From assembly GCF_035083965.1 (NCBI RefSeq), contig NC_089724.1:26980974-27044973 (forward strand): DNA of 64,000 bases, written 5' to 3'. Position 1 is the stretch's first letter; each line of letters starts with the position of its first letter. This stretch comes from Branchiostoma lanceolatum. Its lineage: Eukaryota > Chordata > Leptocardii > Amphioxiformes > Branchiostomatidae. Shown here piece after piece: positions 13,901 through 36,708 of this stretch. The notes below the pieces were generated by a model. The model was not told where the DNA came from. It searched no databases and saw nothing but the letters and a program-made list of their open reading frames with translations. The position numbers and the translations under genes are program-made.

Positions 13901-15938
13901 AGCTTCTTCCTGCCGGCGTTCGTGTCATCTGCGCTGACATAAACGTAAGTAGATATAGTCTATTGTACTGTGTAATGTGTGAATCTGTATGCGTTCGGGG
14001 CGTTTTATTTTCGCGGAAACGTTAATAATCTTAAAAAGAAAATATCCAGAATTCAAAATTTTTAACAAACCAATATGCAGCCTTAATCATCATCCTCGCC
14101 GCTTTGCATCTTTGCATGTGATTGAACGATCTCTACCTTGTAGAGCGAGAAGCTAGCAGCAGCCAAAGAAGCCGGATGTGACGACGTTATTCTTTGGGGC
14201 AAGGATGGTGAGTGAGAATCTCTATTTCTTGGTTATGACTTGAATTAGACATACACGTGTCTTTTATGATAACACAACTGGCCGAAGAAATCTGGGGTAT
14301 ATAGAATTCTTGATTTAGTTTCAATATAGGTCGGGTACCGATTGTCAATTTTATATTAAAATGGTTTCATTTGGTGAAAAGAACACAATTCCTACCGTGG
14401 ATTTGGAATGTCTTGTTTATGCCCAGTTGATGACGACACCGCCGTGGCTGCAGCCAGGAAAGCCTGTGGGGACCTCGGTGCTGTAGCAGCCATTGACTTC
14501 GTCAACGCGCCCGTGACCTTTGAACGTTTGCAGAAGACAATGGCCGAGGTCGGTGATTCACTTTAACAACTCATCTCCGAGTAGATGTAAGGATCTGAAT
14601 CATTCTCGGTGCTTCAAAGCCTGAGTGTCATCCTAATTACTCCCAGGCTCTACCTTCACCAAGTACCTAGAATGGCACTCAGGCTAGGTGATTTACGCCT
14701 TTTTTTGCAATGTTGGTACTCTTTTCTAGTATCAATGTTACAAAAAGAAACGTAAAACACTGAGAGCAAACCGGATCCTTACATCTGCTTCGTCTGAAGT
14801 CTGAGTCTTCGTGTGAATCTTTCATTAGCTTGTGCCATACATCACTTTAGCGAGGCGTCAGTCAAGAGTATGAAGAGCATTGAAATATAGGTAGTAAATC
14901 TAGGAAGTGAATCAATATTTCAAGTTAATAATTAACCTATGAGATATCTGTATGGTGAGCATATTTCAAAAGATAAATACATGTACAGGACACGACGGTA
15001 AAAGGTATACCTACACGTCCCAGTGGAAAATATATCGGCTGTTGTTACTTCGCACCCAGGGTGGCATACACGCTATGGTGGGTTTCTTCGGAGTAGACGC
15101 CCCCGTCTCCGTTCCCCTCATGCCGTTTGTGGTGGCGCGTCACACGATTACCGGGGTGGTCATAGGATCGCTACCACAGCTGAGGGACCTCACGGCAATG
15201 GTGGCGCAAGGGAAGGTCTGTATACCTAATTCTCGTGACGTCATGGCTGCATTCTTTAGTTCGCGTGACGTCACGTCTTTCCTACATCCCACCGCTGCCA
15301 CCAGTGTTCAAGAATAGCAACGCAATTTGCTGTAATCTAATAATGATATAATGCTATGATAAGAAGCATACATACAAGTGTAATCTAGCTCAATATTCAA
15401 CACAAATATAGTCTGACCCAATAAGCCAGTTCACGGTTCCTAGTACGCATGTGCAGTGTCATAGGTGAAGGCCACCGACTTGTAAACAGTGCTCGTCTCG
15501 ACATTGTCTCGACCTGCATAAACAACGCCCCAACGGGTTTTGTTTAAGTCTCGGGGGCCTTCACATTTGACACTGCACATGCGTAGTAGCAACCGTGAAC
15601 TAGCTTATACACAACATATGGCAACTAGTCATACACGATGTAAAATGCCAAGCAAAGTCGACGACGATATTTGTACATGCAAGAATGAGAAGTTCTTTTA
15701 TAAGATGATTTCAGTACTCCTAGTTTATTATCACTACGCGCTACCTAAATCTAACCGTCACTTGTTCTCTCAGGTCAAGCCACCACCCATTACCCATCAT
15801 CCTTTGGAGGACGTGTATGACGTTTTGCAAGGTCTGAAGACTGGAAAGGTCAAAGGTCGTGCTGTAGTGAAGTTTGAGTCCGGAGACCCTACACTGTCAA
15901 AGCCACACGAGATGGGAACGGGACTGGCTTCACTATAG
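10973..15938 (+). CDS. Zinc-dependent alcohol dehydrogenase-like protein, copy 2 (MDR family)
   Basis: Ten coding exons: 10973-11071, 11458-11542, 11678-11730, 12688-12812, 13399-13559, 13835-13944, 14144-14207, 14427-14548, 15060-15215, 15774-15938. They join to 379 aa with the same intron phases as the neighbouring copies. It has GVCHSD and GHE for catalytic zinc, a C-x2-C-x2-C-x7-C structural zinc loop in exon 4, LLPC in exon 5 and GAGGLG in exon 6, so it looks catalytically complete. Differences from copies 1 and 3 include an aromatic and proline-rich loop before GHE, one residue less in exon 8, a changed exon 9 segment and a C-terminal extension of about 20 residues after the point where the others stop. 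It lies 3 kb downstream of copy 1 on the same strand, and a piggyBac-like MITE ends 183 bp before its ATG. I infer a tandem duplicate with a diverged substrate or regulation. Confidence 0.9.
11203..11425. repeat. Complex (TG)n microsatellite
   Basis: Long GTGTGT/GTGC tract with an inner G run near 11325, ending 32 bp before exon 2 of dehydrogenase copy 2. It explains several spurious Cys/Val-rich reading frames. Confidence 0.95.
11732..11925 (+). mobile_element. TACTGTAAAT-type MITE abutting a splice donor, copy 1
   Basis: Ends TACTGTAAAT and ATTTACAGTA; interior TGGTTTTTATTTCG and GTGGTTTTAAGTTTGCCG, as at 52078 and 53938. A 33-bp segment (ATTCTGCTACAGTATTGG...) is duplicated inside. It begins one base after exon 3 of dehydrogenase copy 2, so its TA forms part of the GTACTG donor. 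Confidence 0.8.
12531..12659. repeat. Hairpin upstream of exon 4 of dehydrogenase copy 2
   Basis: Arms of about 60 bp (TTCTCCAAGCAGAGGTTT left, AAACCTCTGCTTGGAGAA right) with a short loop near 12595. It ends 28 bp before the exon. Confidence 0.85.
12955..13190 (+). repeat. Dispersed repeat with GTGTGTCTGTCTG core
   Basis: Begins TCTCCATGAAAAATGGAGAT, followed by a TG/TCTG tract, AGCATAACTCAAGAACC and GATGATATTTGGTATGTG. The reverse form is at 46775-46935. Confidence 0.6.
14578..14792. mobile_element. Small MITE in intron 8 of dehydrogenase copy 2
   Basis: Inverted ends GTAGATGTAAGGATC and GGATCCTTACATCTGC bound about 215 bp, with an inner CTGAGTG/CACTCAG pair. Confidence 0.7.
15422..15607. 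mobile_element. ACGCATGTGCAGTGTCA-type MITE, copy 1
   Basis: Inverted arms TACGCATGTGCAGTGTCA and TGACACTGCACATGCGTA, extended by AGTTCACGGTT and AACCGTGAACT. The interior has GAAGGCC, AACAACGCCC and CTCGGGGGCC. Same family as 61636-62082 and 63027-63183. Confidence 0.85.
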
Positions 15939-17240: not shown

Positions 17241-17247
17241 TATATGT

Positions 17248-18156
17248 CACAGTAGAGATTGGAATCCAGTAGAGTCCGGAACTCTACTAGTAGAGATTGG
17301 AATTCCAATCTCTACTAGTAGAGACTGGAATTCCAATCTCTACTAGTAGAGTTCCGGATTCTACTAGTAGAGATTGGAATTCCAATCTCTACTAGTAGAG
17401 ATTGGAATTGGGATCTGGATATTGGGATTCCATCAAAATGTTTTGGAGAATAGACTGAATCATTTTACACCTAAAATTGCAGCATAGCTAAGCCTACATT
17501 CACCATTACTATTTTAGGTGAATTATTTCATATTTTAGATATCTGATAACTTTGACATCAATTTTGGAACTGGCTCGGCAGGGGTGAATTAGCTCTTATA
17601 TACGGAGTCACTAACGAACTGGAAAAACTGGTTGAGCATATTGAGTCACTAACCCATAATGGCCGTATGCAAATGTATCTGATTGACATATCAGTGGCAT
17701 TTACAAATAGCCATTGACTAAGGTTGGACCGGACGGCAATCCGCATGGTTACAATGTGTCTTGACAGAAGGTTTATTAGATATCTAAAACATACAGTATT
17801 TAACCTAAAATAGTAATGGTGAATTTCTAAGGCTAAATTTTAGGTGTGAAAAGACTCAGTCCATTTTCCAAAACATTTGATGCAATCCGAATTTCTTCTA
17901 TCAGAATTGGAGATTGTCCTGGTAGAATTCCAATCTCTACCAGTAGAATCTGGAATTCTCCTAGTAGAGATTGGAATCCCAATATTCAGATCCCAATTCC
18001 AATCTCTACTAGTAGAGATTAGAATTCCAATCTCAACTAGTAGAATCCGGAACTCTACTAGTAGAGATTGGAATTCCAGTCTCTACTAGTAGAGATTGGA
18101 ATTCCAATCTCTACTAGTAGAGTTCCGGACTCTACTGGATTCCAATCTCTACTGTG
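17248..18156. mobile_element. Foldback element built of short palindromic units
   Basis: Long inverted arms (about 17248-17550 and 17765-18156) start CACAGTAGAGATTGGAATCC. They consist of repeated AGAGATTGGAATTCCAATCT palindromes alternating with CTACTAGTAG. An 8-bp flank (ATATATGT left, ACATATGT right) differs at one position and would suit a hAT-type insertion. The central 200 bp is unique. No ORF of note. Confidence 0.8.
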
Positions 18157-18775: not shown

Positions 18776-21700
18776 ATGGCGCGGCGTTGTATGAGGTTGG
18801 TGGAGTACGGGAAGCCCTTCGAGCTGACGAAGGAAGAGGTACCCACTGCACCCAAGGGCGGGGCTGTCGTCAAGGTACCGTAAGTTAGTGTCTTAAGAAA
18901 CAGAACCTGGGACAAGTTACGTCGCTTGGTGTGTTGGAAAAAATCTAAGGACGAAAACGTTCACAGGTGCAACGCTTCTTTGACGAGAAAACACCGTGCT
19001 ACTTAAAGTCTGTGTCACAAAGTCAGAAAGCAGCTCGTCCAACGAGTATTAAGAGCTCTAACATTATCGACAGCGATTCGATGGCCTGTGTCGTCTAAAC
19101 CGCTGCACGGGATCGGCCACTATTCACAGGTCACTAGGCCCCAACCAAAATGTAACAGGGTAGATTTTCAGGCCAAATAATAAGATCGATTCTTTGACGA
19201 TTTGCGACCTCCTGTCGAACTACAGATTAGGCCATAAGTCGTTGACAGCCGATCTGACGGCATCAAAAGCTTCGAGGGACAATTTTTATATGCTGCACGT
19301 TTACACATGTCGCCTCGGGCTTTCTACCATAACTTGTTAAATTGAACGTCAAAATTACTGAGCTTGTTTGTGTTTCACAGTTGAAGACATGGTCGACTGC
19401 TTCTGGACTGTCCTATGAAAAACACGGGTGGTTTTGAGAGTGGATCACTGAGTCACCCACACGAATTGTTGTTTATATCACAATCGCATCAGGGTATTTA
19501 TTAACTTAGTAATTAAGTCGAGAAAACCTATCACACTCACAAACCTGGTCAAATGCCAGTTGTTTTTCATTCAAGGCACTTGTTAGGGGAGGGGCGTGAC
19601 GAACTTTGCACTCTTACTATGTTCTGACTGTTTATACTGCACGAAGGCCACCGGGTGACATATTCTTCCGTCGGGTCAACAAAAAGGCACTGTCACACTG
19701 TTGACATCTACTCGCACGCAGGGTGAACCAAAGTTTAGATGGGATGGACGATAGAAGATGGCCGGGTGGGGGTGGAAAATCCTCCCCTTCACACCTGTGT
19801 GTATATACAAGTCTGCATGAGTTGCGTATCAACATGTTTTTGGTTTAGGTTAAGTTTGCAACCGATGAAGTGATTTCTTAGGTTCGATAACTTGGCTGCA
19901 CAACGGTGGGTCAAAGTAGAAAACACTTTCTTCCCCTCAAACTTAACTTAATCCAAAAAATGTTAAAACGCAACTCACACGCACTTGGATATACGCAGGT
20001 ATGATATGGCCCTAAGGCTGCCGGCTGTGATGTTTGGTGTGTTTTGGACTGTTTTGCTGCTTTTCTGACTTTTCTTGTCTTTTTTTATAATATCTTACCC
20101 TCTCCGATGTTGCCTCCCCAGACGGAGTATGCCGGAGTGTGTCACTCTGATGTCCACAGTCATGACGGAGACTTCCGCACGCTGGTACCGATGCAGACCG
20201 TTCTGGGTAAGCCTTTTTTTTTAAATTTTTTTAAAGATTTGTAAAAAAAAATTTGAAATTTTTGTTTGTTAGATTTTAAATTTTTTTCCAATTTTAATTT
20301 TTTTAAACTTTTAAAATCTTTTTAAAATTTTTAAAACCTTTAAAATTTTCAAAGATGTTTCAATTTTTTTAATTGCAACATAAAAAAAAACATAGTGATG
20401 TCGCACTCAAGCAAACACGCTTACTTAAGCTGCATCATTAAACACAAGAAAGAAAACACGTGACGAAGTATGAAATACTAACGGCAATAGCTTAAGTAAC
20501 AGTGAAATGAAATGTCATCTATCATTCACATCCACGTAAATTATTTCTTTCGAGACGTCGCAAAAAAGGACCCCACTTCTTTTAAATTTTTGTATCTTTT
20601 TACGTGAATCATAGAGTTATAGAGTTATATATATATAGTTGGCAAATAAATTGTTTGTTGACAGCTTAATTGAAGAATCGATTCTGAAAATTCGTTTTGA
20701 CATCATGGGCATCATCATATGTTTACAGGACATGAGATAGCCGGCACAGTGCACGACATCGGCCCAGGGGCAGACTTTAAGGTAAACGCCCTGAACTTGA
20801 GCATTTAAGTTCAATATTCTTTTGAAATTCTAGCTTTTATATGTTTTAGAAAGCCTTCCATATGATAACTGATTCAAAATTGCACGACTTATGTCTTCAA
20901 GCAGCGGAGTAACGTCCGAAATGTGGGTATTTATAAGTCTTTCATCAGACACGACATGTTTGTATTGCATATCCAGTAAACCGGCTCACGACGTAAAGCC
21001 CCCCTCTCACTGGACCCGCGGCACGCTGGTGGCGTCGCTGCAGCCGATCGAATTGCAAAAGCACTCATCGAATTTCATCGACAAAAAATAATGTTTTTAA
21101 GTTTTGGGTGTTTTGTTGTCTTTTTGGTTATACTTGTACGTTTTGAATGATATTCCCATTGTAAAGTCGAGGGTAACACAAATCCAGTTTAGGACGCAGC
21201 GACGCCGCCAGCGTGCCGCGGGTCCAGTGAGAGGGGGGCTTAAAACACCAGGTTTGCACTTTACAGTAAAAGTTGCATATCCGGACAGATCTATTTGATC
21301 CACTCACGCCGGGAATGACCCCTACTCTTTTCCATAAGTTTGGTGGCTTCTTCAATGTGCTCGATGTGTTGCTCTCCCCAAGCACGGTACCTCCATTTAA
21401 CGTCTTCTCCAAGGGAGGTCCCTAACCGAAGCTAGCTACTCATTTTCAACTGAGTCGAGTGAGGAAATAAGTGTAAAATACTATTACCTTTCACAAGGGC
21501 ACAACATCGGGGGTTGTCAGCGATTCGAACTCCGTACTTCCAGGTTTGGGGTCAGCAAACCCTAGCCAAAAGGCCACTGTGTCTAACAGTAATGTAATTA
21601 GATATACGTATGTTACATTTCAACCCCACAGCACCTGTTGGGGAGAGTACAAACAGTTCAATCAATGTTGCATCGTGTGGCGCAATCGGTAGGGTGTTTC

Positions 21701-24700
21701 GCCCACAACCAATAGGTCCCGGGTTCGAAACCACCGATATGCCCCGATGTTTTGCCCTTGGGAAAGGCACTTTACACGACTTTCGTCGCTTCACTCAGGT
21801 GTAAATGAGTACCTAGCTTCGGTTAGGGACGTCCCTCGGATATGACGTTAAATAGAGGTCCGGTGTTTGAGGAGAGCCACACCTCGAGCACTTATCGAAA
21901 AGAGTAGGGGTCCTTCCCGAAGTGAGTAGTTCAATACCTACAGTCCTATGGCCGCACATGGGTTCGCCCTTAGTAATAGCCTCTGGCTAGTTGAGCAACC
22001 CTGGCATGTATATGCTGAACCAATAAATAAATAAATAAATGTTGTTTGTGTAGGTAGGAGACAGAGTGGCCGTGTACTTTCACGGAGGATGTGGGGGGTG
22101 CAGCAGGTGTGAGGTGGGGGAGACTACGGCGTGCCTTAAGGACATCAAACACTGGACGGGAATAAACAAAGATGGCGGGTGAGGTCAATTTTGTAGTCTA
22201 GGTAAAGTAGAAGACGAAGTACATTTTATTGTAGACTGTCCTTTGTATGATAGCGATAGAATAATTCTTTTTAGTTATATGTGTTAAGGAATTAAATTCC
22301 CCTACTTCAGATACCTGAATAGTAGAGAGAAATTGATATTTCTTACGGCCTTCGATAAACCAACTCTAACTAATCACACAGCCTCCTAAATTTATACAAT
22401 TACCAAGACGCGAGAGGAAGTCGAAAGTACTTGAGTATGCTAGACGTTTTTATACAGTAATACTCATGAATATGTATATATTTGTCAACATGTGACCTGT
22501 GCTTAGCCAAGTGGGGCAAACATATACAATAAAGGTCTTCACGTGGTATCTTCATTTGTATGTAATCAAACCAAAAAGTAACCTTAATACACCACTACAA
22601 TCGAATGTATTGAAATTATTGCCTTTGATTAAAGCCTCATTAAAGTTGAACGTGGAAGCTTCGTTAACTTCGTACATACAATCCTACAGTCGCAAATGCT
22701 TTAAAAGATAATATAAAAATTAGCAACATTCATGTCAATCCAAAATGTGAAAAGAGAGGAATCAACTTAATCGTTGAAAGCAAAATGAAAATAAAATAAA
22801 TTCTGACTTCGATCATCGCCACATAATGTATTTGGATGTGACGAAAGAAGAGACTTGTCAAAATTAGCCTCCTTCGCAGACTTCCTAGAACGGCGGCGTA
22901 TATATTTGGGGGAGGGGGTGACGCAATTTCTTACACGGGCCAAGGTTCTCTAATGCCGGCAAGGGAGTTTCGCTGCCGAGGGAGTTATGTCGCTAAGAGA
23001 CGACCTTGGCCCGTGTAAGAAATTGCGTCACCCGGCCCCCTCCTCCAAATATATAAGCCGCCGTTCTAGGAAGTCTGCGAAGGAGGCTATGTCAAAATGT
23101 GCATCCGATAGTTTCGTCAAAAAATGCCCTTTTCAGGTTCTCCGATTATGCCATCATTCCCGACGCCAAACTCTTGGTGAGGGTGCCTGACACGGTTGCC
23201 ATGGATACGGCGTGCCTGCTTCCTTGCTCCGGGCTGACTGCCTACAACGCTGTCTGTAAGATGTTGCCGACGGTTCAGGACTTCGCCAAACATTCAGGTA
23301 ACACTAACTGTTTAAAGAATATCATTCTGTACAAGGGTCATTTTCATCTTCAAACGTAACGCTTCACAAAGATTGCCAGAAAACAACGGTGAGACACATT
23401 TAGGATGGTTTAATGTACCCGAAGTAAAGACATTCAATTCAAGAAAACAAAGAAATAACAATGCAAGGGTAACGAAATATGCAAATATAAACAAGAAATG
23501 CCTTTCATAGTGTGAGCAAAAACTATGTTAGAACTACAAGCCCGATAGCCAACTTTTCTTTAACACCTGGCCGTAGTGTCTTTCATTGTTTAACTTTTTT
23601 GTTCAAGCCCAATATGTTTTGATGAACACAATTTAAGATGATGCCTACAGTTTTTGTGTGAGTGTGCATAGTATTACATAAATTTACCTGATTGAGATCT
23701 TCGGCCATGCAAGCATATAAAGCTATCACCACAAGATACTAGTATCCATTTCAAAAGTTATATTTGTAATGGGAGAAGGTAGCTGGTTTACAAAGTTTGC
23801 CAAAAACAATGACCTGAATGCTACCTAAAGCCCCTGTCACACTTGTGCGTATAGACAAGCCCGCATGAGTTGCGTATTAAAATGTTTTTGGTCTAGATTA
23901 AGTTTGCAGCCGAAGAAGTCATTTCTTTGGTTCGATAACTAAGCTGCACAACGGTGGGTCAAAGTAGAAAACAACTTCTTCCCAGGCCCAGCAAACTTTG
24001 CATAAACATAAAGATGCTCATGCGCATCTCATACGCAATTGAATATGCACACAAGTGTGACAGGGCCCTTACCCAGCTATTGCCGCACATCCGTCAGAGA
24101 ACGTTATCGGTGACTATCACGATGTGTCGTGAGTTTACATAACCCAGTGCCAAGCTGTACATATTTATAGCCACACACGCCGCCCTTTGGTGTTTCAAAG
24201 GTTGCGTTCGTTAATGATTGTCTCTCTTTGCACCCGTGCTGCAGCGGACTGTGCAGTACTGTTGGTGGGCGCTGGGGGGCTCGGCCTGTGGGGTATCCAG
24301 TTTGCCAAACAGCTACTTCCTGCAGGAGTTCGCGTCATCAGCGCTGACGTGGACGTACGTATCGGTCTACATCTATATCTATCTCGTACTGAACAAACCC
24401 TTCTGCTAGTGAACCGCATTCTATTGGATGCAGTGCGCGGCTAAGTGCGACCGATAGAATTGAACGAAGAATTGGTACTAATATAAGACACGGTGGCGCA
24501 AGCGGTAACGCGAGCCCACTGCTTCGCCATTTGGATCAAATTCCTCGGATCCTAGGGCCCGTGTTCGATCCTAGGGGTCAACTCGAGCTCGGACATGTTA
24601 TAAGGGATTGCACTCGTCATTTCGGATGGTGACGTAAAGCGAGCGGTCCCGTGTATGAGCTAGGGAGCTTCGGGCGTAAGCCTCAAGCGTCAAACCTCTG

Positions 24701-27700
24701 CACGTAAAATAACCCAACACACTTATCGAGAAGAGTAGGGGTCACCCGGTGTGCTTGGCCAAAAACGCGAGGCGTGGCGAAGCCGATCGCGAATTGCATT
24801 ACCACTAGCTACTTGAAAAAGCATTATGCTTCACCTCAATTGAGGATGACTGCTTTACTTTTTATAAGTAAAAGTGCATACACAAAACTAGCAAATTTTG
24901 TGCATGACCACACTAACTGAGTCCAAGTTTCATCTAGGGTTTGGGAGGATCTCTATGCTGGGCCAACTCCCCCTTGAGAAATTGTCTGCTGATAATATTG
25001 TCACTATATGTATAAGTCGAGTGTTGTATATAATGCCATAGAAACCAATTGGGCACGAAAATGCTTTTTCAATCTCTCAGCAAAATTAAAGCCGAGATGA
25101 AAATGCAGTTGAGGTACATTTATTCCAATATATAACCCATTCAGGATTGTTTCGCGTTGTTTCAAGTTGATTTTCGTTGAGTAGCTTCTTACAATCGTCG
25201 TCGGAAATATAGCAACCTTTTCCTTATCTTGCAGAACGAAAAGCTGGCTGCAGCCAAAGAAGCCGGGTGTGACGAGGTTCTTTTGTGGGGCAAGGATGGT
25301 AAGTCGCAACTTGCATTTTGTGAAAGGATGTCATAATTGATAGACGCTAGATACGGAGCACTGGGAGGACCTTGCAAGTGGCCGTTCCAGATGGTGATAC
25401 ACATTGTCCGGGCAGTTCAAACCAGAAGAAGCTAGACTGATTCGCAGCGCAGAAGAAAAGCGGATCCGCAGAAAAGAGCTTTGCAACAGAACTGAGTCAG
25501 CTTACAGATAGATATGACCTATGTGGCAGAGACTTTCATTCTCGTATAAACTATATGACTGTTTAGTCATAGCCGATACTGTAGTGCGGATGTGAATTAG
25601 GATTTTACCATGGTCAATAATGACCGAAGGAGGCTATATATATGTACAGCAATGATGGCCATGGATTGTCGGGAGTCTGTGCTGTAGCTGCGTACATATT
25701 TTTATAGTTCTACTTCTGTGGTCAATTGATGAACCTGTGTGTATCTCAGTAAAGTCTGATCGGTTAGAAATGCATTTATCGTCTTCTTTGTACCTAGTTG
25801 ATGACGACACCGCCGTGGCTGCAGCCAAGAAAGCCTGCGGGAGCCTCGGAGCTGTTGTGGCGGCCATTGACTTCGTCAACGTGCCTGCTACATTTGAGCG
25901 TATAGAGAAGATTCTAGCTACGGTTGGTATCTTTTTTATTGAGTGCTTTTTTTTTCTATTGTTATATCGGCGCTATGTAGCGTCGATATATAGTCAAACC
26001 TGCCTAAGGAGACCACTGATTATGAGGGGATCAATAAGACCTGGTCTATGTGGAGAGGCGGTCGCAATAGACAGGATTCCTAATACATGTGCCAATGGGG
26101 TAAATTATCCAAGGTACCAGCAAAAAGTAGTCAATTATTGTACATTGTTAAAAAGACTTCCATTAGTGAAGTACAAACAAGTGAACTTCACTATTCCTCC
26201 TAGAGTCATTACACATAACATACACATCACAGTAGAACTTGTGAAATACACATAACATTACATACTATGTACATATTTACATATATCAATTTCAATTTGC
26301 TACCAGTTTTGTATAGACCTGTTTGTGTCCGTTTTCAATCTGTCTTTGATGAGTATCTTATAAGGATGGTACACATGATCTGATGTGATGTGGTAGAGTA
26401 TTGTACGATTATGTGCACCGGTACAGGAAAGACTTTGTTGCAGATGACGTTCTTGGTTTGGGCAGTATGAAATTATTCCGTTTTGCAGAATTTACTGTGC
26501 AGTGTTGATGGTTCACACTTTGACCAGGTGGTCATTATGCCATGACGAAGTAGTCTCATGTACATGTTTGACTGTACATAGTTTTGATCATAACGTTTTT
26601 CTTTCACATACAGTCACATCTGCCTCTGTCTCATACCAATGTTCTCCCATGTCGCATACCAATGTTTTCCCATGTCCAGGGCGGCATGCACGTGTTGGTG
26701 GGTTTGTTGGGAGTCGGTGCTTCTGGTTCCGTGCCGCTGATGATGTACGTGCTGGGTCGCCATCAGATGGGTTCTGTGCTCATGGGGTCGCTTCCGCAGC
26801 TGAAGGACCTCATGGCCCTTATGGCACAGGGGAAGGTGCGTACATGTTGTACTCCCCAAGTCCTGTAGAGGTAGCAGAACACAGTTTTAATCCGCGACCC
26901 TCGGGGTCTATGACGCGGGTACAGAAAGTAGTGCAGCCCAAACTCTTGAAGACTGGGTAGAAAGCTGCATGTGAGAGGCATCCATGTGTAAATTGTGCTG
27001 TGTGGTGTAGAAATATGTCGGCTTTTAGACTGTAGGATTTGGATAGTGGGCCTTTTCCGCTTTGTGTATAAATGCGCCATCTTGTGCAACCGCCTCACGG
27101 GGTCAGGCGGCTGCAGTTCAGTGACCTCTCGCAGAGCGCTGTTTCAAAGTGGGCGTGAGGAGCCGATACGTCGACAGAATTTTTTTTTTTTTTTTAGTTA
27201 TTTGTAGGTTGTTCCTTAAACTCAAAAATGTTCGTTTTTCATATATCTCAAGTGCACTGCGCTATAATTTTTACCGTGTCGAAGCTAGTCACCTTGGGGG
27301 CCTTAACTATAGAAATCCCCATAGGGTGGAAACTGTGTTCTGCTACCTAGACCTCTTTCCAGCTACGGCGGCCATTTTTGAATTTCCCGGGGTCAGTACG
27401 GGGTTATACACCAAAACGAGGCAGTAGCTGACTCATCCTACTATAAGCCTCTATTGCCATATATAGGTATAGCATCTTCGGTGGTACATTTCGCCCCTCT
27501 AAGATGAAATACTGTAATATATGTACCTTTCATGTGCAGAAAATATTAATGTAGACATTTGGACACGTGTGTGGTCGTCGACATGCACTGTATGAGTGAT
27601 TGGCATTATGAATACAACTTTAAAATTTGAGACCTTGCGTTTTCCCTCAGGTCAAGCCACCACCCATTTCCCATCATCCTCTGGATAACGTCTATGACGT

Positions 27701-27755
27701 CCTGCAGGATCTGAAGGCTGGGAAGGTCAAAGGTCGTGCTGTTGTGAAGCTGTGA
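18776..27755 (+). CDS. Zinc-dependent alcohol dehydrogenase-like protein, copy 3 (MDR family)
   Basis: Ten coding exons: 18776-18874, 20122-20206, 20729-20781, 22054-22178, 23137-23297, 24245-24354, 25235-25298, 25798-25922, 26680-26835, 27651-27755. They join to 360 aa in an open frame. Catalytic zinc residues (GVCHSD, GHE, LLPC), the four structural zinc cysteines and the GAGGLG nucleotide-binding loop are all present. It is closer to copy 1 than to copy 2 in the Rossmann and C-terminal exons (same VVKL end). The introns are the most repeat-laden of the array: a SINE ends 13 nt before exon 4, a LINE tail begins about 10 nt after it, and a 225-bp MITE ends 47 bp before exon 5. A 1.87-kb inverted-repeat element separates the start region from its former upstream sequence. 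AATAAA at 27843 is a likely polyadenylation signal. It is intact by sequence; whether it is expressed is unknown. Confidence 0.9.
19790..20015. mobile_element. GGGCCCTGTCACAC-type MITE, diverged copy
   Basis: Matches the family at 23826, 30624 and 45021 in order: TGTGTATATACAAG, GAGTTGCGTATCAACATG, GGTTTAGGTTAAGTTTGCA, TGCACAACGGTGGGTCAAAG and a degraded ATGGCCCTAAG end. Confidence 0.7.
20215..20400. repeat. A/T-rich low-complexity tract
   Basis: Runs of T and A with only scattered G and C follow directly after exon 2 of dehydrogenase copy 3. No gene signal. Confidence 0.85.
20994..21243. mobile_element. PIF/Harbinger-like MITE
   Basis: TAA flanks and 45-bp inverted arms beginning AGCCCCCCTCTCACTGGACC and ending with its reverse complement. 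A 3-bp TWA target duplication suggests PIF/Harbinger. Lies in intron 3 of dehydrogenase copy 3. Confidence 0.75.
21295..21590 (-). mobile_element. tRNA-derived SINE, reverse orientation
   Basis: Reverse complement shows an A-box-like GTGGCCTTTTGGCTAGGGTT, a B-box GAGTTCGAATCGC and the shared body CTTCGGTTAGGGACCTCCC and AAAAGAGTAGGGGTC. Confidence 0.75.
21672..22043 (+). mobile_element. tRNA-derived SINE, near complete
   Basis: The head TGTGGCGCAATCGGTAGGG (A box) and GGGTTCGAAACCA (B box) are followed by CTTCGGTTAGGGACGTCCC, CGAAAAGAGTAGGGGTCC and GGGTTCGCCCTTAGTAATAG. The tail is (AAAT)n. It ends 13 nt before the acceptor of exon 4 of dehydrogenase copy 3. Confidence 0.9.
22189..22545 (+). 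mobile_element. LINE 3' end fragment
   Basis: It begins about 10 nt after the donor of exon 4 of dehydrogenase copy 3 with a frame reading GKVEDEVHFIVDCPLYDSDR, which is the LINE C-terminal zinc region. It ends at a CAATAAAGG tail near 22530. Confidence 0.75.
22865..23089. mobile_element. 225-bp MITE with perfect 9-bp target duplication
   Basis: TAGCCTCCTTCGCAGACTTC and its reverse complement form arms of about 100 bp. TGTCAAAAT occurs immediately on both sides (22856-22864 and 23090-23098). A 9-bp duplication suggests a Mutator-type enzyme. Confidence 0.85.
23826..24071. mobile_element. GGGCCCTGTCACAC-type MITE, copy 2
   Basis: TAA/TTA flanks; ends GCCCCTGTCACACTTGTGCG and CAAGTGTGACAGGGCCC. 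Interior as in the copies at 30624 and 45021. The 3-bp TWA target suggests PIF/Harbinger. Confidence 0.85.
24489..24830 (+). mobile_element. tRNA-derived SINE, second type
   Basis: GGTGGCGCAAGCGGTAACG (A box) and GCCCGTGTTCGATCCTA (B box), then a body with CGTAAAATAACCCAACACAC and TCGAGAAGAGTAGGGGTCAC. Lies in intron 6 of dehydrogenase copy 3. Confidence 0.8.
25980..26260. other. Intron 8 segment of dehydrogenase copy 3, possible old repeat
   Basis: AGTCAAACCTGCCTAAGGAG followed by a GACCTGGTC and AGAGGCGGTC motif resembles ends of dispersed DNA repeats, but no second copy is in the window. No coding exon seen. Confidence 0.25.
26836..27650. other. Intron 9 of dehydrogenase copy 3, no assigned content
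   Basis: A poly-T run near 27180 and no recognisable gene or repeat copy. Confidence 0.4.
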
Positions 27756-28637: not shown

Positions 28638-30436
28638 TTACTTAGCTTCCCTATCTCCGCGAGAGTTTTTACAACGTTTCAGAGCTTCCAGTGTCTCATT
28701 AAAATGTTCCTGTTCTAGCTGTTTCCCTCTGCGCACGATGGACCCACCCCGTCCTTGCTGCCAGTCTTCCATCAGCGCGCGTCCCTTCTCCTTCAGGCTG
28801 GCGCTGCTCCGGTTCAGGACGTTGTCGATCTCGAACTGTTTCAGTCCCAGCTCTTTGCCGAAACGGCGGAGGGCTCGCTGCCGATCTTCGCTTAGCAAGT
28901 CCTCGGCTAGACCTGAAAATGAATGAACAAATTGACGAAAGACCTTTATTGTACATTCATGCACTGACGCAAACGTTTTGACCTAGCTGAAAAGAGCTAC
29001 GAATTCATTGGGCGTTGTAATGTAAGCTGTCAAGAATTCCTGCTTCACTCATACATACAATTGATGACAATGTCGTCAATAGCAAAGTCGGTGTCTGTAA
29101 TACCTAGGATAGAGACCTTCATAAATATGTACGATTAATATACATTTATTGTAACGATTGTAGTCTTGCAATGACGTTTCCTCAAAAAAACTATTTTCCG
29201 GACTGGAGAAATCTTTTCAAGACCATGAAAATGGCAACATTTGTACGATTTGTAAGGTGATCCCAAATCCATGATTTGAACATATCATACAGCTTACGGA
29301 AAGCCAAACTCTTGCTTACCAGCAGAAAACTCCTGGCACCACATCTGCCGCAGTGAAGCCATGTGTTCTTTCAGACCAGCTTTTGTCATAGCGGGAGACC
29401 GAGTTTGCTGTTCACACTTGTCAATAGGCTCGTCTGTTTCTTCATCAGTTGGTTTGGAGTCACCCTGACTGTTTTCTTTTGTGAATTTTATGCAAATTCT
29501 AACAAATACGCCAAAACTTTGAATGAAAAACTCAAGAAAATATTTCAACGTAACTCCTACATTCGGAATATGTCCATTATTCCATCCTCTCAAAATAAAG
29601 GCAGCGATTTTGGAATGGGCGATTTCAGGGTCATATGATTGTATCAGTTCTTCCAAATACACAATGAGCTCAAAGATGTGTTCAAGAATTTGTAGGATGA
29701 TGCCCGGTTCCATCACTTGGTTCTCTGTGTTGCGACCATCTGCCAACGTTTCGAAAAAAGGGAATAGAAGTTTGCAGACAACGTTTCCAAATCGAAAACC
29801 AAGCGAAACGCTTAGACTTTCCCACTTATTTGATCCGGAGGAAAAGCGTTTTCCACCCTTTCCAATAATCTGTGAAGCCTTGTTTTTTCCTTCTCTGAAA
29901 TCGTCCATAGAATGTGCCTTAAGATGTGCCTTGTTTTCTCCTTCTCTGAAATCGTCCATTGAATGTACCTTAAAAGGTACCTTGTTTTTTCCTTCTATGA
30001 AATCGTCCATAGAATGTGCCTTAAAAGGTACCTTGTTTTCTCCTTCTATGAAATCGTCCATAGAATGTGCCTTAAAATGTGTCTTGTTTTGTCCTTCTAG
30101 GAAGTCGTCCATAGAATGTGCCTTAAAAAGTTGCAAGAGGTCTAGAGCAGAAAGATGTATGTTGTATATTGCCTTCTTCCCTGAATTCACCACTTTTTTA
30201 AAGTAAAACAGCACAGTTAATGCCGTTTTAGGATAGACATTTACTAGGATAGATATGATTTTCAACAGATCATTTTGGTCCATTCTAAAAATCAGACTGA
30301 CTAAGCATAGTAGTTTTTGAAAGCTACAATGAGTTATTTGTTCAAAGAAACTGGGTCTAGTCTCGATTTTCTTTCCTTTTCCATTTTCATCGATGATGTC
30401 TGAGATGCTAGAATACTTCTTTTCGTCGCCCGTCAT
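28638..30436 (-). CDS. Death-domain protein with five tandem 17-residue repeats
   Basis: Two coding exons on the minus strand, 30436-29320 and 28912-28638, joined by a 407-bp GT-AG intron, give 463 aa. The ATG at 30436 is preceded in frame by TGA within the same exon, and an acceptor-like TTTTGCAG lies further upstream, so a noncoding leader exon is likely. Residues 1-103 are mostly helical with hydrophobic stretches and match nothing I recognise. Residues 104-188 are five direct repeats of pattern F-K-A-H-S-M-D-D-F-x-E-G-x-N-K-x-x. Residues about 189-372 form a second unrecognised helical region. The last 91 residues match the death-domain pattern (FGKELGL, helix-5 DW, LxxLKRC-type end), a family that forms homotypic complexes in apoptosis and innate immunity. 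The death domain is confident by pattern, the rest is unknown. It stands tail to tail with dehydrogenase copy 3. Confidence 0.85.
29873..30127 (-). repeat. Five in-frame 51-bp tandem repeats inside the death-domain gene
   Basis: Five direct 51-bp units encode residues 104-188. Each contains HSMDDF followed by (L/I/R)EG(Q/E/K)NK. Units 1 to 4 differ by only a few bases; unit 5 begins with L instead of F. The unit length is a multiple of three, so copy-number change would keep the frame. Confidence 0.95.
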
Positions 30437-30623
30437 GTTGTTTTGCGTGTTTCATTCACAACCTGCAAAATATAACATGCCGTTTTAATGATAGGTATAG
30501 CATTCGGCTGATATATACGTATAAGGTATAAATGATACTATACAGGCACTTGGTGTTTAGTACATATCAGAAACAGGCTTCCACCAATGGCTAACAAGCT
30601 GAGATACCCGCACACCCAACTTC

Positions 30624-30863
30624 TAAAGTCACACTTGTGCGTATATACAACTTGATGTCCACATGAGTTGCGTATGAACATGTTTTTGGTTTAGGTTAAG
30701 TTTGCAGCCGAGTAAGTGATTTCTTTGGTTTGGTGACATGGCTGCACAACGGTGGGTCAAAATAGAAAACAACTTCCTCCCCGCAAAATTTACTTAAACA
30801 TAAAAACGTTACTGCGGAACTCATGCGCACTTGAATATACCCACAAGTGTGACAGGGCCCTTA
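30624..30863. mobile_element. GGGCCCTGTCACAC-type MITE, copy 3
   Basis: TAA and TTA flanks, left end shortened (AGTCACACTTGTGCG), right end GTGTGACAGGGCCC. The interior is nearly the same as at 45021. It lies about 190 bp upstream of the death-domain gene ATG. Confidence 0.85.
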
Positions 30864-31962
30864 CATCATCATACACTGCACTTACCCTGTCTAGTGAGCA
30901 AGTTGTGACTGCATCGACATACAGAAGCAGGAAGTGATGTAAATTTGAAACGCTGTTCTCAACAAGTGCATATTCATGTATCAGCGTGAGACAGTTTCAT
31001 TTATCAAGACTAGCGATACAATCTTCTGAAATGTCGGACTGTGCATCGGTCCGACAGTAAATTGTTATTCTTGTTGTATACTGCACGGTGGCACAAATGT
31101 ATGGACCCCTTATAATTATAAGACTTTCGATATTTTGAATTATGAGTCAGCTATCATTAAGTAATCAACCCAAAACAGAGCATACTCTACAATACACAGG
31201 GTTGTTAAACATTCTATCAATAGTGAGCTTGGAGCTAGTATACCTACTTGTACCCCGACCAAAAAAATGAATATACATACTATATGACATATACATACAT
31301 TCACAGTCACAAAATGTCACACTCTCTATGTTTCCCATTCATTTCAAATCATACATATATCATCAAATGCACCATTACTGAGACATTTGTATAATAAAAA
31401 TGGCATGTAACCATAACGGTAGCTGTACATTACCGAACGTTGTTATCATTATCGTAAGACTCAATGCCTTGTTGCAGAACGCTCTCCCGCCCGCCGCTTG
31501 TGCTTCTGCTGGGGCACAAATACAGCCACCCTCGCACCTTACCAACGGTCGAAACGGGCGGAAAGTCCCGTGGATCAGGTTCTATATAAAACCTCGGAAA
31601 ACGGTTCACACCGTGAAACCTTCCGCCCGGGGATTCCCCACAGTTTCGGTCCCGGCCAATGACCGATGATCTCGGACTAGTAAAACCACTTCCGCACGCT
31701 TCGGGGAGACTAAATGTCTTTCATACTGTTGTAATTTGATCTGGGTACATTTTTGCAAAATTATCGTTGCTAGTCTTTTACAATGGTTGTTTATTTCTTG
31801 TTCAAGAAGAACTATTTTTGTAGCGCAATGATCTTGTACTGCGCGATTTTGTGAAGTGCTACCTGACGATGGTGATTCCCCTGACTCAGTCAGGTGGGTC
31901 TCTGCTACGCCACAGACAGAGAACTAAATGTCGTACTTTCTACGCCCTCTTATTTGACCCAG

Positions 31963-32047: not shown

Positions 32048-32260
32048 GTGAGTATAACCCTCATTTTTTTCGTTTTTAGCGTGATCATTCGCACCTGTCG
32101 ATGTTGGGTAAGCACATACAGTTTGGGCCATTTGTGCTGCTACGGTCGCAAAAAAACTCACAAAGTCACGGAAACTCAGGAAAATATCACAGATGAATTA
32201 CAATATTTGATATCCCTGAAGGATTATTGGGTCATAAGGACTTTGAATTATATTCAATAT

Positions 32261-32668
32261 AATGATCTAGGGTGGTAAAGTACGAGCATTGTGTCAACAT
32301 ACATGTAGCATAATACTGACACGTCTCCTTTCACTTTCGCAAATACGTCGTAATTACCATATTTTCCAATTATAAACCATCATATAGCAAACAACCAGGC
32401 AAATTATTACTGGAAATTCGTCACCGTTAGATTATAAATGGTTTGAACTATCTTATTGTTTTGATAATGATCTAGGGTCGTTAAGGGGAAGCATTGTGTC
32501 AACATACATGTAGCATAATACTGACACGTCTTCTTTCACTTTCGCAAATACGTCGTAATTACCATATTTTCCAATTATAAACCATCATATAGCAAACAAC
32601 CATGAAAATTATTACTGGAAATTCGTCACCGTTAGATTATAAATGGTTTGAACTATCCTTTTGTTTTG
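32261..32668. repeat. Tandem duplication, two copies of about 204 bp
   Basis: Two adjacent direct copies begin at 32261 and 32465, each with AATGATCTAGGG. They are nearly identical apart from a few changes near the start of the unit. No coding potential is seen. Confidence 0.85.
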
Positions 32669-33210
32669 GTGTGTTTGATTTTGAGTGAGAACCATTTAGA
32701 TACGAATTCCCCAAATCTGTAATACATATGCATGTATGTGTCCAGTTTGATATTTGAACTCTCGCTGTACAGAAAGGAGGGAGGGCTGCACATGTGGAAC
32801 ACGAAAGTGATATTGGTTATCTTCACCGGTATAATTTGTTTGCTTATTTTATCGGTGTTTCTCATGTTTTTATACTGCCATGTTTCTAAAATGTACGTTG
32901 TGTAGTTCTTCTCTATGTTAAATCAAATTGATTAGACAATCACTGTCAGACCGTGTTGTTTATAGGACGTAATTCTTTCATTTTTTATCAATTTCTGATC
33001 TAGAAGACTGCACTTTTTTAAAGCTATTGTCACATTTCTAAACCGGGGCCTTCCCGGGATGTTTGCTGAAACGAAAAATTGTGGATATCAAAATATATAC
33101 GCAAATTAGCCTCATGACTATTCTTTTTGCGTTCTGTGTATTCTGTAGCCTTCTTGTCGCAATAGTAGGGAAACAATAGTCCTCTTTCAGTTTTTGTATC
33201 GTTGAGATAT

Positions 33211-36200
33211 ATGAGGTGTTCTCTTAACATAGGCTTTTGGAACATCCACGGCCTAGGAAAAAAACTTAAGGAAGATAACTTTAGAAGTAGTGTAGACAAC
33301 CTTGATTTCTTCTCTCTTATCGAAACCTGGAGTAATGAATCCTCAGAAATAGACATCCCAAATTTCCAACACTTTTCATCTTCGAGGAAAAAACATAGAA
33401 GGGCCAGAAGAAATTCTGGCGGAATTATTTTTTACTTTAGAAAAGAATTGGCGAAGTTTATAAGTAGAGAGCGCTCCAAATCGGATGACTTACTCTGGGT
33501 TCGAGTATCCAAAGAATTATTTGGTTTATCGAAAGATGTATTTATATGTACCGTTTATATAAGTCCTCTATACTCTCAAGTCCACAAAAGGACGGATAAC
33601 TGTATTTTTGATATGTTAGAGAGAGATGTAGCATCTTTTAGTTCCAAAGGCTATGTTATTCTAGGGGGGGATTTCAACAGTCGGATAGGCTCCCTACAAG
33701 AAACCACCGAAGACCCCTTTGTTCCAGAACTTGAACCAGAAGTGCCCCTCTCTAACCTTGACATCCCCAGAAACAACTCTGATAGAAATCTCCCTAATAC
33801 TTTTGGCAAAAACCTAATTGATCTATGTACCCAAGCAGACCTTCGTATTCTTAATGGTCGTGTTCTAGGTGACTTAAATGGACGCTACACCTGCTATCAA
33901 CCTAGAGGTTGTAGCACGGTGGACTATACCATCATAAGTAGCGCCCTTCTTCATAACATTAACGCATTCAAAGTCCACAATTTATCAGAATTTTCAGATC
34001 ACTGCCTGATAACTACGAATATATGTACGCCACATTGGAACATTCAAGACACAAAAATGACCAAATGCAAATTACGCCCCCTTCCAAAAAAGTTTGTTTG
34101 GGACGAAAATTCAGGTGAAAAATTCATCCGTGCTCTAAATAGCCCGATGATATCCGACAAACTAAACAACTTTTTATCTATTGGGCATGATATTACATCA
34201 ACAACTCGTAACATTGATGAAGAAATTAGCAGGTTTCAGAATATTCTAGAAACAGCAGGAAAGTTATCATTAAAAATAAAATGTAACAGGAGAACCAAAG
34301 GACCAAAACAAAACAAAAAATGGTTTGACAAAACATGTTATGAGGCCCGGAAAGAACTAAGAAACCTCAGATATCTCCTTGTACACAACCCAAAAAATCC
34401 ATCCCTAAGAGGTAGTTATTTTAAGAAAAAGAAAGAATTCAATAAACTTATTCGAAAACGCAAACGAGAATTCGAAAACAACTATCTAATGCGCCTTCAA
34501 AACCTCCAAGAAAATAATCCGACCGCTTTCTGGAACCTACTTAACGAACTCAAAAAGACCAACTCAGTACCTCAGGAAGATCTACCGGCCGACACATGGG
34601 TAGAACACTTCAGAACTATACACAGCAAATCCAGACTAAAACAAAAAACTTTTGATCTTAATTTTGAAAAGGAAATTCTTCACAAATTCCAGGCACTACA
34701 AAAATGTGAAGCAAGTCCAGGACCTTTAGATAATCCAATTACTGCATCAGAAATCAACGATGCAATAAAAGCCCTCAAGAACAAAAAAGCCAGCGGGGAC
34801 GACATGATCATCAATGAAATGCTAAAAGCCGGAAAAATAATCCTATTGTCCCCTTTATTAAGACTATTTAACAGCACATTTTCGAAAGGAACTTTCCCCA
34901 AAACATGGTCCCAAAGTTATATTGTCCCGATCTTCAAAGCAGGGCGAAAAGATGACCCCAACAATTATCGGGGAATCGCCATTTCAAGCTGTTTAGGAAA
35001 ACTGTTCTCTTCAATACTTAACAGAAGATTGTCAACCTTTCTTGAAGAAAAAGAAATAATAAAACCAAACCAAACAGGATTCCGAAAAAATTACAGGACA
35101 TCTGATAACATCTTCATACTGAAAACCCTTATATCTAAATACACACAATCTGGAAAACGCTTATTTGCTTGCTTTGTAGATCTGTCAAAAGCCTTTGACT
35201 CCATCTGGCACGAGGGGCTATTGTACAAACTCCTTTCCAATGGCATTTCAGGAAAAGTCTTTGATATAATCAAGGATTTATACAACCAGTCCGAAGCTAG
35301 TGTCAAAACTAAGACGGGCTTGACTGAAAATTTTCCTGTTGAAATTGGTGTACGTCAAGGTTGCGTTCTAAGCCCCACCTTATTCAACCTGTACATTAGT
35401 GACCTTATAGAGGAACTAAATGCAAAACACCTAGACGCCCCCCTGTTACAACTCTCAAAAGTAAATAGCCTATTTTATGCAGATGATATTGTTTTACTAT
35501 CGGAAAGTAAGGAGGGACTACAGAAAGCAATTAATACTCTTGGCCGGTATTGCCAACAATGGAAGCTGACTGTCAACCTGGCGAAAACAAAAATTATAGT
35601 ATTTAACAAAAGAGGCCTTTTATTCAATAATCTTAGTTTTTCGCTATGTAATAAAGAGATAGAGATAGTTTCATCATATTGCTACCTAGGAATTATGTTT
35701 ACAGCAGGATGTACATTTAGCGCTGCCACGAAAAATCTACAAAAGAGAGCCTTAAGAGCAATGTATAACATCAGAAGTACGCTTGGGGAGACTAGATCTT
35801 CTGTATCACTGCATTGTAAACTGTTTGACACATGTATTGTACCGATATTATTGTATGGATCTGAAGTCTGGTGCAACAGTAATATGAATGACAAATCTGC
35901 GATAGAAACTGTACATCTAAAATTCTGTAAATATGTCCTTGGTGTTCGGAGGAACGCCAGTAACTTTGCATGTAGATCGGAACTGGGTCGTTTTCCGTTA
36001 CAAATAGAGGCTCAAAGCAGAATGTACAGTTACTATGTTAGATTGGTTAACGAAGTACATACAGATAGTCTTCAATACGAAGCTTATATGGTACAGCAAG
36101 ATCTAGATCGCCGAAAAACATCCTGCTGGTTATCTAATGTAAGAAAAATGTTAGAAGAGTCTGGTTTTGCCTTCCTATACATAAACGGTCCCTCAAACAC

Positions 36201-36708
36201 ACATTCGCATTCAAATGACCTAAAACAAAGATTGAAGGATATTTACATCCAAAAATTTAATTCAGAATTACACGCTAAAGGACGAAGAGAAAACCAAGGC
36301 AACAAATTAAGAACATACAAAACTTTCAAAAAAATATATGAAAGAGAAGCATATTTAAACATTGCAAACTTCGAACATCGCAGAGCGATGTGTAAACTTC
36401 GCATCAGTGACCACTCCCTACACATAGAATCTGGCAGGCAAAACCGTACCCCTCCAAATAATAGAACATGCGAATTCTGTGACGATTTATATGTTGAAGA
36501 TGAAAGCCACTTTTTAATTGATTGTTCCTTATATAAAGATGAGCGGCAATCGTTGTTTAAGATAATAGAATTAGACAAGAAATGTACAAAAATGTCAAAA
36601 CAGGATACTTTTATATACCTGATGTCATGTAAGAACGAATATATAATGGACAAAGTATGTAGTCATATTTCCAAATGTTTCAAAAAGAGAGAAGAAACTA
36701 CTAGGTGA
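33211..36708 (+). mobile_element. LINE ORF2: endonuclease-reverse transcriptase, uninterrupted (CR1/L2-like)
   Basis: A single open frame of 1165 codons starts at ATG 33211 and stops at 36706-36708. The N-terminus (NIGFWNIHGL) and residues to about 265 form an APE-type endonuclease, with GGDFNSR near 152-158 and the catalytic SDH at 262-264. The reverse transcriptase follows, with DLSKAFDSIWH, GVRQGCVLSPTLFN and FYADD at 755-759. A C-terminal zinc-binding region has C-x2-C (1087, 1090) and EDESHFLIDC. No RNase H is seen. The 3' UTR ends with AATAAA at 36859 and a short TATTAT-rich tail near 36885, typical of CR1/L2-type elements, so the clade is an inference. No ORF1 is evident upstream. It lies between the repeat-containing death-domain gene and the unknown gene, probably in the latter's intron. 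Confidence 0.9.

Follow-up and report, generated by a model that had tools for sequence, protein, structure and literature searches.

In human IRAK1 and MALT1, a death domain is combined with several dispersed TRAF6-binding peptides of the form P-x-E-x-x-acidic/aromatic. In Tube, the death domain is N-terminal and the repeats come after it, and an N-terminal death domain is the layout of the Tube/IRAK4 family. According to one study, many insect Tube-like proteins carry multiple copies of a "Tube repeat motif" in addition to a death domain, and its discussion cites an earlier report that the Drosophila Tube repeats take part in Dorsal binding (PMC3792031). For amphioxus, three further papers report many novel domain combinations among innate immune genes (PMC2575513), 13–129 TRADD-N proteins of one clade in Branchiostoma species (PMC8195603), and an over-representation of Death, stronger than that of any other Pfam domain, among the presence-absence (shell/cloud) genes of two lancelets, with 35 and 34 genes (PMC12373286). 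In such a cephalochordate setting, one more divergent death-domain gene is therefore to be expected.

We analysed a candidate for such a gene in a 64,000-nucleotide stretch of Branchiostoma lanceolatum DNA, the whole of which is called the window below. The following features were identified, all on the minus strand:

30452..30463, minus: candidate 3′ splice site, its AG ending at 30463, together with an in-frame TGA (30454–30452)
29320..30436, minus: coding exon A, an open frame with residues 1–372 and the first base of codon 373, followed by the phase-1 intron
30128..30436, minus: N-terminal unrecognised hydrophobic region, probably helical, residues 1–103; sub-threshold Pfam matches only, very poor model
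29873..30127, minus: five tandem 51-bp units encoding five 17-residue repeats (Tandem Repeats Finder, unit-by-unit reading, substitution tests)
29417..29872, minus: second unrecognised hydrophobic region, probably helical, with an acidic linker at its end, residues 189–340; no Pfam match
28913..29319, minus: intron of 407 bases, GT-AG, phase 1
28638..28912, minus: coding exon B with the stop codon, probable divergent death domain, core residues 373–453 (about 28671–28912)

Comparison with known systems

In IRAK1 and MALT1, as proposed here, short docking peptides occur in several copies alongside a death domain, but the repeats found here do not contain the P-x-E-x-x-acidic/aromatic motif. The bridging adaptors FADD, CRADD and MyD88 have a second recognised domain (DED, CARD or TIR), which was not detected here: no such Pfam family was found at E-values up to 10 with the whole protein or with residues 1–103 and 189–372. 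For the alpha+beta TRADD-N domain of TRADD and the TRADD-N proteins, no Pfam match was obtained, and the structural model of residues 1–372, with a mean pLDDT of only 40.3, contains no strand of three or more residues.

One of the closest likenesses is to Tube of the insect Toll pathway, a relative of IRAK4, which is likewise a non-kinase death-domain adaptor with several copies of a repeat motif (PMC3792031). Compared by layout and not by the letters of the repeats, the two differ: the N-terminal death domain of the Tube/IRAK4 family is absent here, and the repeats lie between two unrecognised regions and precede the death-domain-like region, which is C-terminal and encoded by exon B. The first-pass annotation had stated that no adaptor with such an arrangement was known. 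This was overstated, because insect Tube has repeat motifs alongside its death domain (PMC3792031). Judged from the layouts, Tube already provides a precedent for joining repeats to a death domain, and the parts and their order appear to differ here. The lineage-specific death-fold proteins of amphioxus (PMC2575513, PMC8195603, PMC12373286) are similar in that they are described as numerous and combine a death fold with uncommon partners; in contrast, the partners described there are known domains, such as TRADD-N and WD40, and no other known domain was detected here.

Gene structure

The protein is encoded by exon A (30436–29320) and exon B (28912–28638), which are joined across a GT-AG intron into one uninterrupted reading frame. 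The spliced frame starts with the ATG at 30436, comprises 463 codons without an internal stop, and ends with the stop codon at 28638. The donor GT is located at 29319–29318 (GTAAGC), and the acceptor TTGTTCATTCATTTTCAG precedes 28912. Nine junction pairs within one base were tried as alternatives; three of them keep the frame, all with an identical protein, and among these only 29320/28912 has GT-AG borders. Retention of the intron would lead to a stop at 29296–29294 and to a protein of 380 aa without exon B.

From stop to stop, the frame of exon A has 385 codons. For comparison, the longest frame in 500 simulations (first-order Markov, 3.5-kb region) had 227 codons, with a mean of 107, so that the observed frame exceeds 500 of 500 simulated maxima. 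The GC fractions at codon positions 1, 2 and 3 of exon A are 0.47, 0.31 and 0.39, which is coding-like. The two-exon, 463-aa gene proposed earlier thus stands, with an intact spliced frame and canonical GT-AG sites, and it looks like a genuine animal gene.

Shortly 5′ of the start codon, an in-frame TGA is present at 30454–30452, and the ATG at 30436 is the first one after it. An AG ending at 30463 and preceded by a T-rich stretch is a candidate 3′ splice site, which suggests that the coding exon would begin at 30462. With the in-frame TGA and the candidate acceptor upstream of the ATG, coding exon A is probably preceded by one or more 5′ non-coding exons.

The repeat array

Residues 104–188 (window positions 30127–29873) consist of five tandem units, each of exactly 17 aa or 51 bp. 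Tandem Repeats Finder retrieved the array with a period of 51, 4.9 copies, 91% matches and a score of 399, in agreement with the five 17-residue repeats noticed at first. A more accurate form of the motif than the one given initially is [F/L]-K-[A/V]-H-S-M-D-D-F-[I/L/R]-E-G-x-N-K-x-x. Eleven of the 17 protein columns are invariant in all five copies, i.e. columns 2, 4–9, 11, 12, 14 and 15 (K, H-S-M-D-D-F, E-G and N-K); column 1 is F except for one L, and column 3 is A except for one V. The variable columns are 10, 13, 16 and 17. Column 10 reads L, I, I, R and R across the five copies and thus does not maintain a third hydrophobic contact. A sixth, degenerate unit next to the array was considered and set aside; agreement with the consensus is 20 of 51 bases upstream and 9 of 51 bases downstream. 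With a unit length of 51 bases, gain or loss of a copy keeps the reading frame. Five strings of the repeat motif had no occurrence in a word search of open-licence PMC papers, and the same kind of search retrieved no description of the gene.

The five copies differ pairwise by 1–10 of 51 bases (ten pairs), and copies 2 and 3 by a single base. They show 17 non-synonymous and three synonymous departures from the consensus. If selection were absent, about 80% of such changes should be non-synonymous, and a non-synonymous count this low or lower has P = 0.79. Motif columns 1–12 taken alone give five and two (P = 0.42). Purifying selection was thus not detected among the copies in either comparison, both of which treat the five copies as independent although they are in fact related.

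The 51-base unit has 13 variable positions, distributed as 5/4/4 over the three codon positions. Six of the 36 bases in the 12-codon motif are variable versus 7 of the 15 in the five-codon linker (Fisher P = 0.037), and four codons carry 9 of the 13 variable sites (P = 0.044); with five related copies, both tests are weak. These values hint at a somewhat higher constraint on the motif than on the linker, but the lower variation of the motif could also arise because the copies share a common history. Taken together, the array looks like a young, in-frame-amplified coding minisatellite, in which change appears neutral overall.

Exon B and its relation to the death domain

Exon B was compared with 24,736 Pfam models. 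Death (PF00531) was the sole match, with 17.8 bits (E = 0.0038) over profile positions 17–63 of 86, and the gathering score of 22.6 bits was not reached. Two further cuts of the region gave Death with 17.4 bits (E = 0.0051, beside Spore_III_AB at E = 0.018) and with 17.8 bits (E = 0.0037, sole match). With the whole protein, Death scored 13.9 bits (E = 0.059), and two other sub-threshold families that look like chance matches had E-values of 0.088 and 0.12. None of ten shuffles of the core matched Death, and one shuffle matched two other families (E = 0.13–0.15).

A sequence search of the PDB with exon B retrieved the death domain of Fas (E = 0.41–0.44), aligned without gaps over 48 residues that include W-x-Q-x-x-G and colinear from residue 13 to residue 60 in both query and chain. 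No death domain other than that of Fas (TNFRSF6) was retrieved from the PDB, but its E-value is 0.41 at best and two unrelated chains rank above it. One is a prenyltransferase (E = 0.03–0.04); the other, a nucleolar GTPase (E = 0.24), appeared in one search of the two. Both were set aside as chance matches. A further difference from Fas is that no clear transmembrane segment is present; the best hydropathy over 19 residues is 1.49, at most borderline, and a membrane protein was therefore rejected. The order of L-G-L, E-I-D and W-x-x-x-x-G in exon B agrees with the pattern of the death-domain family.

The AF2 model of exon B, calculated from the single sequence, has a mean pLDDT of 83.8 and three long helices, versus the six-helix Greek-key bundle of the death fold; according to the tool description, such single-sequence models are often wrong. 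Structural searches with this model gave no significant match. The C-terminal death domain of the first-pass annotation is hence retained in a weaker form: the sole Pfam match and the shuffles speak for it, whereas the score remains below the gathering cut-off. Exon B is a probable divergent death domain, with family membership unconfirmed below the curated threshold.

The GC content of exon B (0.55) lies at the 98th percentile of 2,549 window stretches of 275 bases, and that of exon A (0.39) at the 28th percentile of 2,516 window stretches of 1117 bases. A gain of exon B by exon shuffling would fit, as both its high GC content and the phase-1 intron agree with it.

Flanking regions and searches for relatives

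Residues 1–103 and 189–372 have no Pfam match above the cut-off, in line with the unrecognised regions reported initially. For residues 1–103, the sub-threshold matches were CKI (16.0 versus 27 bits, E = 0.019) and PH_23 (13.9 versus 27 bits, E = 0.04); residues 189–372 matched no Pfam family at E-values up to 10. Structure prediction of these regions had been recommended. The model of residues 1–372 is mostly helical and, with a mean pLDDT of 40.3, very poor, so residues 1–103 and 189–340 are probably helical as far as this model indicates. Several internal relationships were tried and rejected. Residues 1–103 align with residues 189–345 with a score of 27, compared with a shuffle mean of 26.9, and 47% of 1000 shuffles were equal or better. 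A further repeat inside residues 1–28 was not above shuffles (36%), and the same was true for a relationship of residues 1–103 or 189–345 to exon B (29% and 60%, respectively).

The collections covered were Pfam, NCBIfam, PADLOC, the PDB, and phage, viral and prokaryotic DNA, with animals represented via Pfam families and PDB chains. NCBIfam and PADLOC contained no family matching either exon, and the whole protein had no match in the PDB by sequence. The searches of viral contigs and prokaryote genomes were seeded with six short exact peptides each and can detect close relatives only; exon A had no pattern match in viral contigs and ten in prokaryote genomes, exon B had 14 in viral contigs, and none of these matches was a relative. 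Exon A had no match in phages either. Within the window no paralogue was found, as all tblastn matches beyond the two exons themselves had E-values of at least 0.69. As animals were covered through Pfam families and PDB chains, orthologues and paralogues may well exist in animal proteomes.

Discussion

The feature itself is genuine, and its first reading is right in outline; the docking role of the repeats is putative, and the comparison with Tube reduces the apparent novelty. We tentatively favour a lineage-specific adaptor-type signalling protein, in which a C-terminal death-domain-like assembly module would be combined with a tandem array of docking peptides, probably in cell death or immune signalling. 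The C-terminal module would join death-domain assemblies, and the N-terminal part would set the localisation or the choice of partner. The 51-bp unit would be a coding minisatellite that was recently amplified in frame. Each unit may form a short helix, S-M-D-D-F-x-E-G, with the Ser as N-cap, the Asp at +3 completing a capping box and the Gly as C-terminal stop, following the general rules of helix capping. Met and Phe would share one face of the helix, about one turn apart, and flexible N-K linkers would separate the units. In each of the five repeats, the model starts a helix at the Met that follows the Ser (109, 126, 143, 160 and 177), which agrees with Ser N-caps, but has little weight at such a very poor confidence (pLDDT 40). 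The array would then display five copies of one acidic-hydrophobic peptide and thereby have a higher avidity for a single partner groove. With acidic residues at +2 and +3 (S-x-x-D), the Ser presumably fits the CK2 consensus, and its phosphorylation might perhaps switch docking. Should the array dock a partner, changes in its length by single steps of 51 bases, which leave the frame intact, would offer a natural means of tuning the valency of a signalling assembly. A comparison of individuals with different copy numbers would then directly test how the threshold for cell death or an immune response depends on valency.

On present evidence, it is nearly as likely that the array arose by recent slippage as a neutral coding minisatellite, tolerated as a spacer without docking, and that the copies are identical because they are young and not because they are selected. 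The single difference among 51 bases between copies 2 and 3 and the range of 1–10 over all ten pairs point in this direction, as do the ratio of 17:3 (P = 0.79 versus neutral), the even 5/4/4 distribution of variable sites, and the other tandem arrays that occur across the window (31 rows, some of them overlapping). As far as such weak tests permit, constraint is instead suggested by the 11 invariant columns of 17, by a certain clustering of change, with 9 of 13 variable sites in four codons (P = 0.044), and by the higher variability of the linker (P = 0.037). The multivalent docking array of the first-pass annotation stays putative: the changes among the copies do not differ from the neutral expectation overall, and neither a known motif nor a partner was found. 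If the array is indeed neutral, it would be a warning that identical tandem motifs may signal youth rather than function.

The adaptor reading also depends on exon B. It is unlikely that exon B is another short helical domain or a helical hairpin, which would place the protein outside death-fold signalling. This would explain the score below the gathering cut-off, the three long helices of the model (mean pLDDT 83.8) and the lack of a significant structural match, but single-sequence AF2 models are often wrong, Death is the only family among 24,736 models (E = 0.0038) and is matched by none of ten shuffles, 48 residues align gap-free with Fas, and the order of motifs fits the death family. A decaying paralogue or an assembly artefact is highly improbable; repeated elements do lie nearby, but 463 stop-free codons, canonical splice sites, coding-like GC values by codon position and a unit length that keeps the frame speak against both. 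The adaptor-type protein, with a death-domain-like module and putative docking peptides, remains our tentatively preferred reading. We regard a more far-reaching version as rather improbable, namely a new class of animal adaptors in which an array of phosphorylatable two-turn helices, varied in copy number by slippage, sets the valency and the threshold of death-domain assembly and is flanked by two undescribed helical families.

Genomic surroundings

Downstream of the gene, a plus-strand frame ending at 27755 reads HPLDNVYDVLQDLKAGKVKGRAVVKL before its stop; we take it to be the C-terminus of a zinc-type quinone oxidoreductase, and the two genes appear to be arranged tail to tail. A similar oxidoreductase-like frame is present at 15522–15938. 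The two similar sets of plus-strand frames, 14943–15938 and 26572–27755, apparently form a tandem pair and are presumably exons of zinc-type quinone oxidoreductases. The oxidoreductase-like frames matched no such Pfam family, and a single PDB search returned weak matches only, to dehydrogenases and to an enoylreductase (E = 0.83–0.85).

About 16 kb upstream of the death-domain gene and on the same strand, a SEFIR-domain exon is located at 46900–47256 (minus; Pfam 37.7 bits versus a cut-off of 23, E = 3.1e-9). In the PDB, six pentatricopeptide-repeat chains (E = 1e-6 to 0.0075) rank above the matches of this exon to TRAF3IP2/Act1 (E = 0.079) and to two Sefir domain chains (E = 0.93–0.96). A frame of 467 codons at 55452–56855 (minus) is rich in Pro, Ser, Gly and Asn and has no Pfam match at E-values up to 1.

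An apparently uninterrupted frame of 1179 codons at 33169–36708 (plus) contains endonuclease and reverse transcriptase domains and is, by its make-up, apparently a non-LTR retroelement. An element with inverted ends, about 237 bases long, is located at 30628–30864, 192 bases upstream of the start codon; further copies at 45030–45263, 23836–24072 and 19789–19994 are 82–87% like it. Rfam yielded no match in the window. A unit of 205 bases is duplicated in tandem at 32259–32668 (94% matches), and arrays built on the palindromic unit AATTCCAATCTCTACTAGTAGAGATTGG occupy 17247–18154, with periods of 17 to 49. Three of the four copies of the 237-base element end in clear inverted repeats (GTCACACTTGTG...) and are MITE-like.
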